Source: Utricularia gibba (lineage: Eukaryota; Streptophyta; Magnoliopsida; Lamiales; Lentibulariaceae). Taken from it: 64,000 nt of DNA. Position numbers and translations under genes: made by a program. The notes under the pieces were generated by a model. That model did not search any database and was not told the DNA's origin. It saw nothing but the letters and a program-made list of their open reading frames with translations. Location: positions 684,501 through 748,500 of the forward strand of contig NEEC01000014.1 in the NCBI GenBank assembly GCA_002189035.1, in the 5' to 3' direction. Positions within the stretch are counted from its first letter, which is position 1, and every line of letters starts with the position of its first letter. Positions 24,590-30,470 of this stretch are shown here, in pieces.

Positions 24590-27500
24590 ATGGTGGGGAG
24601 ATTGTTTGATGGAGCGAATGTATGCATGTCGAGGAATTTAGTTCCGCCGGAGCCCTTTGACACACTTCACGACGCTCTCAAACTCAATGGGGCGAATGTG
24701 CTTCTCTGCTGTGATCCTTCCAGGAACGGACCCAATGATTACCACGTGATCTCCTCGCAGGACCATGTAAAATATAAACTCAATGGGGCATTGCATTTTT
24801 TTTCCTTCCACTGTTTTTACATTACTAGTTTAATTTCGCGGTTGGATTTTGCAGGAGAAATTTGACGATCTTCGTGCCAAAGGCTGCAAGTTAGTTGGTA
24901 AGGGTTTCGACAGCCGTCCTGTTATATCGTCGAATGTTTTAAAAATAAGTATTAAATTCATGTGTATATGTCATTCACATGATTCTTGGCTTTGGAACTT
25001 GGACAATAGCGTTGCCATGTCTTTAAAATAGTTTATGAAGATGATGTACCATCTATTTTATCTGATCTTCCTTGTAGCTAGGTCCTCAATGTGTGCTGTC
25101 TTGTGCAAAAGAGCAACAGCCACTACCCAATCGGGATTTCACTTGTTGTCTTGCGATGGATGGCGTCTGCATACTTGCATCCGGTTTTGAGAAGGATGAA
25201 AAGGTACGGTGTTGCAGCTTCCAAATGCTTCGTTTAATCTGTTTGTAAATATTGTTTTTATGTATTTTTTCCTATCGTAATTTTTTAGGGTCTTCTAAAG
25301 ATTGTAAACGTTTTTTGAAATGAGCTGTAGGCTAAAGTTGCTTCGATGGTTTCTGCGATGGGAGGATTACTTCTTACCAAGGCATCATCTGACGCCAATT
25401 TTGTCATTGTGAAGAATGTTCAGGCTCAGAAATATAAGGTTCTAATATGAATGTCATTCTAGAGGCTATAGACTCAAAAAAATTTGGCATCTATGCTATC
25501 TATGTCCTCATGTACTAGGTATTGGTTTCAATTTCGAGGATGGGATTAATGGCCAAGTGTGTAGTCCTGAATATTGAGATAGAGTACACATCCTTTAAGT
25601 TAGATCCACACTTAAGTAATTGGACTATGTAGCTTGTGAGTTGGGGATCAGTTTCTTGAAGAAAGTTTGTGCTTCAGACTAGAATTTTAAAGTTGGAAGT
25701 TTTCGCACTCCCATTAATGGAAAATAAATAGGTCAATCCATTGATCTTCCATGTAGAAACCTTTTTGTAATCTTAAGTTGGAAGCTTAAAATGTAAAAAA
25801 TTATCTGATAAAAGTCTTATTTGTTTCCCTTACTATTGACCAAATGCCTCATTCATTTTCTGATTTCCTCCATGCTAAACATTTTAGTGGGCATTAAACA
25901 ACCTCAAAAAGCCTATTGTCACCATAAATTGGCTTATTCAATGTTGGAAGGAGCACAGGATTGTGCCTCAAGACTCTTATAGAGTTCCTCCTTTTTTGGG
26001 CTTGGTGATATGTGTTAGCGGGATTCCTGCAGGTAAGATCTCAATCTTCCTTTTCGCTGGTTATGTGGAAACTGAAGTACCTATCTGTAAACCAATTGAT
26101 GTAGATGAACGCAAACACATAGAAAATCTTGTGGTGCAAAATGGAGGTAAATATTCTGGTGATCTGAACAAGCGCTGCACACATTTAATATGTGATATAT
26201 CCTTTATTTTTCTGTGAATTCACATTTATTCAGATGTTTGCTCAAGGGTTCCTGATGGCTTTCATTGTTTGGAAGACATGTGGGTTTTCATCTTCAGGGA
26301 TGCACATTCTTTTTTTCAGAAACCTCCGTTCATTGAATTAATTGTTATCTTGTAAATGTATTTTTCCATATCAAATGTTTTTGATATTTGATTTTTTTTT
26401 TTCTGAATTTTGAAGTCGTTAGGCATTGTTTCCTCACCTGCATGCGCATAAATATTCAATTATAGATGTGTTTCGATGTGATTATGCTTGCATATTGGAT
26501 TCCTTAATTTCTCACAAGCTCCTGATGGTGACAAATATAAGGTTGCGAAAAGATGGGGTAACATTCATATTGTTGCAACAAAATGGATTCATCAGTGTGC
26601 TACCAGAAGAGGTCGGTGGACATGTATCTTCGGTCATTTTCAACTGAAATCTTGTCATTTTATTTCACTCTTTGCAACTATCTGTAATGATCCTTCATTT
26701 GTAAGTTTTCTTTTTTTTTTTTTTGCAGCATGCTTAAATGAGGAGTCCTACCCTGTCCATTGTGGATCAGCGTCTTTTCCTAGTACTGCAAAGACCGTTG
26801 AGAGACATAGTCAAAAGGGTCCTAGAAGTTCACAATGCACCTCATCATCCATGAGCATTGCCCCAGATATAAATGGAAGTTCATTTGCTGTTGATTCAGA
26901 ATCTGATTTTGCAAGATCTCCACTGAGAGTTTATTCAGAGATTTCTGGTCCTCCACCATTATATAACGTTGAATGCTTGGATGATAAACTTAAAGATGAT
27001 TCTAGTTCTGTTCCTTTTATTGCTGAAGATTCTCAAAGTGAGGATGATGACTTATACTTGTCAAACTGCAGAATTATGCTTGTTGGTTTTGTAGCTTCTG
27101 AATTACGGAAGCTAGTTAGCATGGTCCGGCAAGGTGGAGGTTCTCGTTACATGTACTTAAATGATAAGCTTACACATATTATTGCAGGGAAACCTTTGGA
27201 AAAGTATGATATGCATACTAAGTTATTTCCTTGTTTATATATTCTTATGTTGGTTCCCCAATTAGAAAATTTATACTAGAAACAATTTCTGCAGTGAGAT
27301 CAAGGAATTAAGAAGTATTGCAGCATTTGGAGTCACTTATGTGGTTAAGACGACATGGCTTGAAGAATGCACAATCAAAAAGAAAGAAGTTCCTGTTCAG
27401 CAGTGTCACATTGCTTATGATTTACTTATTCCAAAAGGTACTGGGCTCTTTAATCATTTAACACCACAGATATCTCCTTTGGTGTTTTTTTCCAAATTTT

Positions 27501-30470
27501 ATGCATAGTTTACTGCGAGACACACATTTTCCCGTTCAACAGTTGCATTATCATCGAGATACTCCCTAGCAATGGCATGTGTTATTTTGAATCCTGGACT
27601 TATCCTTACATGTTTGTTTCTACTCGTGCACTTTGTTCCTTTTCTAACTCGAGTGGATATAGACCATAGTCTGACAGATTTCATTAAAATAAATAGATCT
27701 ATTGTTCTAATAGTATTTTGGGAGAATATGGGCATTAATCATTCAAGTAGTTGTTTTCCCCCAAATTATCTACACTTAGGATATACAGTGTTGAAGGGAA
27801 ATTCTGTGTTTTAATTCTTCCATCTGTATTAATGCATTTTCGATGCTGTAGCCTTTGATAAATTGACTGCAACAAGCATGAAACAGCAGCAGTCATGTGT
27901 AACCCCATCTTTGTGCGGCAGCATCTCTGAACCACAAAACTCCAATGATGGAGAGTTAAGAGGTAAAATTAATCTACTGATCATTGTGCTAGCAACTCTG
28001 GTAAGTATTGGTAAAGTCGCTTGATGTTCTTACGCTTGAAAGATGATTCTGCAGTAAAGGTTGATGCTGGACTTGGCGCTGTTCCCTGTAAGAATAAAAG
28101 TTCTTTGATGGTTTTCAAAGGGAATCACTTTGGTTTCTCAAGCTCATTTCCTGAAGAACAAGTAAGAAGTTCTGTTCTGTTATGTATTTTGATTTCTAAC
28201 CTTGAACCTGAAGATTGCGGTCCAGTTGGACTGGGTGACATTGATTTTTTCCCAAGCTTTTAGTTTCCACGTGCTGTTAGAAAAAATGTTTTTGATCTTG
28301 TAAGATGGAATGTCAAATCTAGATGTCAGAAACTGCTGTACCAAGTCGTTTATTTTACAATCCTGGTTCCCATGATGCTCTTTTGTTCAAGAATGTTATT
28401 GAAGCAAGTTTGATCGCTTCATTTTCTTTTCCATGCTTATCAAATTTTCCTCTTCAGAAACCTGAAATCACAGCGTGGGTAAATGAAGGAGGTGGTGAGG
28501 TTGTTTCAGATCTAAGTAAAGGGGTGAATTTCATTGTTGAGCGTCACGGTATGGGTGCCAATCTCTCCCTGAATTCTAAAAGCACATGTGTCACCACACA
28601 CTGGATTCGCTCCTGCCTGGAGGTATATATCAGTATTACTTCTGGGTTAAACCTTTCCAGTTTCTTCTTATAGCTTTTCCCTATTACTGAATTTTGTAGG
28701 CTATTCCCTGCTTCTCAGTCCGTGGTTTATATTTTTGCTTTATGCATCTTTATGCGACATTCATTTTTATGATTATCATAATTCGTGCTACAGGGTATTT
28801 TGTTTATTCAAATTTGGTGTATTTTACTAATGGATCCTGTATATTCTACTGAAGGATGGGTCCTTGCTGGATGTTAACCGCCACATCCTTTATTCTCCAC
28901 TTTCATGTGAAGTCCCTTTACCTGGATTTGAAGGATATCGCATCTGTGTTTCTCAGTATGATACAAGAGAAAGAAACTTGCTCAGGAACCTGTGCTACGT
29001 CCTGGGGGCAAAGTTCTTTGAGAAACTGACCAAGAAGGCTACCCATCTGCTGTGCAAGTTTGCAAATGGGGAGAAGTATCAGGCTGCCTGTGCATGGGGC
29101 AAAAAAATAGTTACAGCAGAGTGGATCCATGAGTGTGTCGTGCAGGTTATTTCTTTTATTAGTTTTCCATTTTTGTATCTTTCGGTTTGTTGCACGTGTT
29201 TCCTTCCCGTCTACTAAACCCGGTGGCCATTAATTGTGGGACAGAACAAAATTGTTGATGTCAGAGGATTTCACCCAAAAGAGCTCACTTTAGAGGACCA
29301 AGAAGCAGGGTCATTTCCTGTTACCCAATATCCTCTACTTACTTCTAAGATGTCATCAGGTGATGAGACGTCTCAGCCTGTTAATCTAATACATGATTCA
29401 AGAGATGGGGACTCGTTTTCAAGTAAGAGCAGTAAGAGGGAAAAAACGGTAGGAGGTGATTGTTCTACTAGACATCAACCTGGTGACTCCATATATGAGA
29501 TCCCTCACAGGCGTGTTTCTGCTGGAATTGATGAGATGGAAACTATCCAGGAAGTTACTTGTGCAGTGCCTGATGTTGCTGCGGCCATAGAGGATTTGTT
29601 GGAACAAACAAGCAAGGTGAGAACCAGCGAATCTGCTCTTGTGAATAAATGTTTGGTCTTGTCATTTTTACAACGATTGTGCTTATTGTAGATTCAAGAC
29701 TGGAAGTCTCAGGAGACTAGTGGCTGCCACGAAAATGTACCTTTTAGAATTTCATGTGGGCATTCTTTTCCAACAGCTAGGCTCATGTTTATCCCTAATC
29801 ATTGCCAGTTTCTATCCTCTAAGTCGGCACTCCCCTCTGAAAAGCGCGCCAATCTGACATCTGATCCCGCAACATCCATGTTTTGGATAACGGGGTGAGT
29901 TCTTCAATATCCATAGCCCTTTTTGCACTTGCTGTTTTCAGTCTCAAGGTAGTTTGAGTTGGATATCTCGTGTTAGTTAACTAGTGGTGATGACATGCCG
30001 TTTCTTCTGACAACCACGCCTAACAAGAATGACATTTTACTGCTGTTACAAGATGCACCAGTAAATTCATATATTAAGTATTCATGTTTCAGGCTGGATA
30101 AGAAGGAGAATCTGACTACCACGGCTAAGGCTAAATGCATCTATGATGGTTTCAGCGAAACGCAAACTGATTCTCAGGTTCATATTACGGGCTGTTTGAA
30201 CTGCTTTATTTCAAGGGTTTATCTTACTTTTCAGAATGACAGAAACTATGAACGGGACTTGGCATTGCTTGACATGAATTAGCCAAATTCTCTTGCTTTT
30301 TAACATTTTCTCAAAAACCGGTCTTCGGACCAGTGGCCATGGATACAATACAATTAGATGCCTGTGTTTGTGTTGATCAGGTAGTTGGATACGAGGAGGA
30401 TCTTTCTGGAAGACAGATGATCATTGATAGAGCCCGCGCAAGAAGTGGCAGTAGCATGGCTGAAGACTGA
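24590..30470 (+). CDS. MEI1: MEI1/TopBP1-like protein with five BRCT domains
   Basis: Nuclear multi-BRCT protein related to TopBP1; Arabidopsis MEI1 is needed for meiotic DNA repair. The start at 24590 gives MVGRLFDGANVCMSRN. BRCT repeats can be followed by their closing Trp helices: PIVTINWLIQCW, IVATKWIHQC, VVKTTWLEEC, VTTHWIRSCLE and IVTAEWIHECV. The last and best BRCT reads GYRICVSQYDTRERNLLRNL with KKATHLLCKFANGEKYQAAC. A Ser/Asp-rich linker (about 26730-27060) separates BRCT 2 and 3. The C-terminus ends YEEDLSGRQMIIDRARARSG and a stop at 30470. One intron (26197-26517) has U12-type signals; another (26033-26104) is stop-free and a multiple of three. I found no frame breaks. Confidence 0.93.
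26197..26517 (+). other. Candidate U12-type intron in MEI1
   Basis: The intron starts ATATCCTTT, the exact U12 AT-type donor, immediately after the codon for Asp in THLICD. Near its end is TTCCTTAAT (26500-26508), matching the U12 branch site. Frame-preserving joining to GCTCCTGATGG (exon from 26518) makes the last two bases AA; a classical AC lies two bases earlier at 26514-26515. A canonical GT-AG alternative (26192-26518) is also in frame but drops two residues. Confidence 0.6.

Follow-up and report, generated by a model that had tools for sequence, protein, structure and literature searches.

A probable U12-type AT-AA intron in the BRCT2 region of a plant MEI1/TopBP1-like gene

The gene and the intron signals

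The window, a stretch of 64 kb (G000:C98:684501-748500) from a 100-Mb assembly whose gene content points to a flowering plant, carries on its plus strand a MEI1/TopBP1-like gene with a coding extent of 24590-30469. The hand-built model has 985 residues and no internal stop, with an uncertain exon around 28323-28622, far from the intron discussed here. Pfam matches consist of PTCB-BRCT (196 bits, three stretches), BRCT (178 bits, four stretches) and TopBP1_BRCT0 (28 bits), and judged by these matches the domain set is the MEI1/TopBP1 architecture. The plant TopBP1 is Arabidopsis MEI1, At1g77320 (PMC8706423); a search combining At1g77320 with U12 introns found no report in the literature covered. 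The gene is single copy, and no MEI1 paralogue was found in the genome with which the intron end might be compared. In searches for orthologous MEI1 loci, the prokaryote collection gave a single weak bacterial-bin match over 21 residues and the viral contigs gave no match.

Of interest is an intron that interrupts the domain aligning with TopBP1 BRCT2. The upstream exon (26105-26196, plus strand) ends in ...CTHLICD and corresponds to the N-terminal half of that domain. Its last codon, the Asp codon GAT at 26194-26196, is the homology-defined exon end, and directly after it stands a U12-type 5' splice site, ATATCCTTT (26197-26205), which agrees with the consensus at nine of nine positions and conforms to the U12 pattern [A/G]TATCCTTT. 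A branch-point sequence, TTCCTTAAT (26500-26508), likewise fits TTCCTTRAY at all nine positions, and A26507 is probably the branch A. The intron's 3' end reads TTCTCACAA followed by G26518, and includes an AC at 26514-26515 and an AA at 26516-26517. The downstream exon (26518-26611), defined by homology, starts with APDGDKYKVAKRWG.

On the best reading the intron is of the U12 type, occupies 26197-26517 (321 nt, phase 0) and has AT-AA termini. Its excision keeps the frame, joins THLICD to APDGDKYK and predicts the mRNA junction TGTGAT/GCTCCT; retention would add seven codons before a TGA stop at 26218-26220. The first-pass annotation had set both signals at these boundaries, had called both minor-spliceosome consensus and had joined the two peptides through the AA, and all of this is borne out. 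By the count used here the AA lies 10 nt from the branch A; the review literature gives an optimum branch-to-3' splice site distance of 11-13 nt, so this spacing is on the short side.

Alternative junctions

Where does the intron end? With the 5' cut at 26197, in-frame A-N ends near the branch point are few, namely the AA at 26517 and an AC at 26532; the AC at 26515 (8 nt from A26507) and the AG at 26518 (11 nt) both break the frame. Full junctions were scored for three readings: AT-AA (26197-26517), GT-AG (26192-26518) and AT-AC (26197-26532). The scores, in that order, are 90.9, 80.0 and 73.4 bits against Pfam PTCB-BRCT, and 83.2, 72.5 and 61.3 bits against the best PDB TopBP1 chain. The AT-AA product aligns with TopBP1 BRCT2 without a gap at the junction (THLICDAPDGDKYK vs THLIVQEPKGQKYE). 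Its hydrophobic-Ile/Leu motif is separated from KY by seven residues, a spacing shared with two further BRCT repeats of the protein (FVIVKNVQAQKY, THLLCKFANGEKY); the GT-AG product has five. Protein comparison thus favours the junction length of AT-AA.

The AT-AC reading 26197-26532 is in frame and uses the perfect 5' site, but its end lies 25 nt beyond the branch A; five BRCT residues (APDGD) are deleted, at a loss of 17-22 bits. An AT-AG intron, 26197-26518, would end at a common distance from the branch A, but with a broken frame and with a pairing described as disfavoured among U12 introns (PMC3584512). Together these two are the least probable of the readings considered, with hardly any weight.

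Could the major spliceosome remove the intron instead, either alone or to produce a second isoform beside the AT-AA one? A U2-type GT-AG intron at 26192-26518 has canonical dinucleotides and is the sole GT-AG reading that retains most of the BRCT domain. It is also in frame and, as had been noted at first pass, yields a protein two residues shorter (THLISPDGDKYK; predicted mRNA junction ATAT/CTCCTGAT). The donor, TAT/GTGATA, scores only 1.9 bits and ranks 104 among the 368 GTs of the gene, on a matrix built from 15 of its donors, whose median is about 6 bits. Two hand-placed donors score lower, so donor weakness by itself does not dispose of the reading. The two residues lost, however, come out of the seven-residue BRCT spacing, at a cost of about 11 bits of homology, and the reading offers no explanation for the pair of perfect U12 signals that mark the boundary. 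A U1-compatible donor combined with a protein-compatible junction, as looked for in a U2-type intron, is not present. The GT-AG reading is accordingly improbable, and the dual use that the first-pass annotation had thought possible finds no support here, given the donor score and the homology lost. Still less probable is a version in which both spliceosomes work at overlapping boundaries (26197/26517 minor, 26192/26518 major) and generate two BRCT2 forms, CDA or S; were it true, the ratio of the MEI1 CDA and S forms would report minor-spliceosome activity. In human cells that have lost CENATAC, A-type introns come to use alternative sites of the major spliceosome (PMC8280824), and the donor at 26192 may act as a cryptic site upon failure of the minor spliceosome.

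A closer competitor emerged from an exhaustive enumeration in which every stop-free combination of an AT, GT or GC start with an A-N end was scored by BLOSUM62. The top score, 365, belongs to an AT-AC intron at 26195-26515; AT-AA at 26197-26517 scores 361. This reading takes the same signals, but its 5' cut falls two bases earlier (TGTG/ATATATCC) and its end is the AC of 26515. It is in frame, has canonical AT-AC ends and the same length as the AT-AA intron, and gives the product THLICEAPDGDKYK, where CE replaces CD (THLICEAPDGD). The predicted junction is TGTG/AAGCTCCT, and an mRNA from which an intron ending at AC 26515 has been removed would contain ...TGTGAAGCT.... The two proteins are equally good; their sole difference, a D/E exchange opposite Q, is conservative, so protein comparison does not separate them, but splicing signals do. 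Cut at 26195, the 5' site becomes ATATATCCT, which fits the consensus at five of nine positions, with positions 5-8 (CCTT) all mismatched. The three bases at the start of the intron, beside the U11 helix, are recognised specifically by U11-48K (PMC3584512). The end would also lie 8 nt from the branch A, against 9-13 nt in the AT-AC controls of the genome, all of which are cut at ATATCC. For these reasons the AT-AC reading at 26195-26515 ranks second to AT-AA and is unlikely. The earlier statement that the AC at 26514-26515 shifts the frame therefore holds for a cut at 26197 and fails for one at 26195; the in-frame AT-AC readings 26195-26515 and 26197-26532 had both been overlooked.

Might the terminal AA itself be an artefact? 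CACAA differs from CACAC in one base (26517), in one assembly only, and a sequencing or assembly error, or a private variant, could disguise an ordinary AT-AC intron ending CACAC/GCT. The remainder of the gene, however, is intact over 985 codons and the region is therefore not generally error-prone, which leaves such an origin a slight chance.

The minor spliceosome and AT-AC introns of the genome

The organism has components of the minor spliceosome. Full-length snRNA genes for U6atac (86.9 bits), U12 (86.2 bits) and U11 (74.2 bits) are present, all above gathering scores, together with a CCDC84/CENATAC homologue that has three matched stretches above the cut-off. The genome's own U12 snRNA can pair with the MEI1 branch site over 7 bp, and the 5' site can pair with its own U6atac over 6 bp and with its own U11 over 7 bp, G-U pairs included. 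DIM1-family sequences occur at three separate loci (on contigs C3, C414 and C451 of G000; L057-L062), one of which may be the plant DROL1 homologue. DROL1 is linked to the splicing of AT-AC introns.

For controls, the pattern ATATCCTT...TTCCTTRAY was searched genome-wide, and most matches were chance occurrences or repeats. A related search with a GT-type pattern was dominated by the copies of one tandem repeat, about 2.09 kb in length. This repeat, perhaps a satellite or rDNA-type array, is present in dozens of copies (G000 C72, C302, C303, C304 and C328), and each copy carries GTATCCTT and TTCCTTRAY about 127 nt apart.

At least four AT-AC introns with perfect signals and homology-supported joined products were found. 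Those in genes for a kinesin (L007), HSBP1 (L069) and a DUF747/TAPT1-like protein (L022) have products that match their families, and end 9, 13 and 10 nt from the branch A, respectively; that of an NSF-like gene (CDC48_N, L018) ends at 11 nt, with a product match below the Pfam cut-off (E 3e-4). Two likely additional AT-AC introns, both at position 1501 (L005 and L075; 13 and 11 nt), have joined products with no significant Pfam match. With 46% identity between their flanking peptides, the two loci appear paralogous, and the apparent AT-AC U12 intron at the same place suggests an intron conserved in duplicated genes. In all six control introns the cut falls exactly at ATATCC, and the terminal AC lies 9-13 nt beyond the branch A. 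On the AT-AA reading the MEI1 intron departs from these controls in its last base only, within a control set that is small and selected and yields no in-genome frequency of AT-AA.

How readily do such motifs pair by chance? Under a first-order Markov model, about 0.06 perfect ATATCCTT...TTCCTTRAY pairs at a spacing of 60-600 nt are expected per 64 kb, and the window has two. The second, at 50923-50345 on the minus strand (ATATCCTT...TTCCTTGAT...AC), mimics an in-frame AT-AC U12 intron. It was rejected as an intron: its 5' motif belongs to the coding sequence of a PHM7/RSN1-type channel gene, where the open frame reads ...VVTFWTCHILYKEY..., and the pair is therefore coincidental. Motifs alone are thus no proof. 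The MEI1 pair is taken as real because both of its motifs coincide with a homology-defined exon junction.

Interpretation and known intron classes

The explanation that best accommodates these observations is removal of 26197-26517 by the minor, U12-dependent spliceosome as an intron with AT-AA termini, to which we assign a probability of about three in four. The first-pass annotation had arrived at the same reading, and homology, the minor-spliceosome parts and the in-genome AT-AC controls now support it. In the proposed sequence of events, recognition of ATATCCTTT would fall to U11 together with the U11-48K protein, base-pairing of U12 to TTCCTTAAT would leave A26507 bulged out, and U6atac would then take the place of U11. 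The 3' boundary used would be the first suitable one, CAA/G, ten bases downstream. On this explanation the intron belongs to the A-type (AT-AN) minor introns; as for history, we infer that an ancestral AT-AC intron probably changed its last base from C to A. When CENATAC is depleted in human cells, 92% of A-type minor introns are affected, and AT-AA introns are counted in that class (PMC8280824).

Are AT-AA introns rare, as had been assumed for this locus? In absolute numbers they are; however, a pan-eukaryotic survey found AT-AA to be the commonest non-canonical ending of minor introns in animals and plants, and in plants it accounts for almost 75% of non-canonical minor introns, which are themselves about 4% of conserved minor introns (PMC10639083). 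The product of these figures puts AT-AA at about 3% of conserved plant minor introns. The MEI1 intron is most likely a tidy example of a variant that, although uncommon, has been catalogued before, rather than an intron of a new type.

If confirmed, it would be a clear example, from a plant, of an AT-AA minor intron in a gene of meiotic DNA repair. Because its 5' and branch signals are perfect, what mainly varies is the final base, and the locus would then serve as a clean natural experiment on how the minor spliceosome chooses a 3' end and on whether plant CENATAC-type factors treat AT-AA introns like AT-AC introns. Gene predictors that require GT-AG or AT-AC ends would misannotate the MEI1 BRCT domain.

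Arabidopsis MEI1/TopBP1 (At1g77320) and animal TopBP1 likewise have BRCT0 plus multiple BRCT domains, and animal TopBP1 BRCT2 aligns ungapped across the intron junction of the plant gene. The AT-AC U12 introns of the same genome, in the NSF-like, kinesin, HSBP1 and TAPT1-like genes, share the 5' and branch signals and a similar spacing of 9-13 nt, but end in C, whereas the MEI1 intron most likely ends in A. The closest likeness is to the AT-AA subtype of A-type (AT-AN) U12-dependent introns, which has the same ATATCCTTT, TTCCTTRAY and short branch-to-end distance and, on the favoured reading, the same AT-AA ends; from that subtype the MEI1 intron, known here from its sequence, does not depart in any of the features tested.
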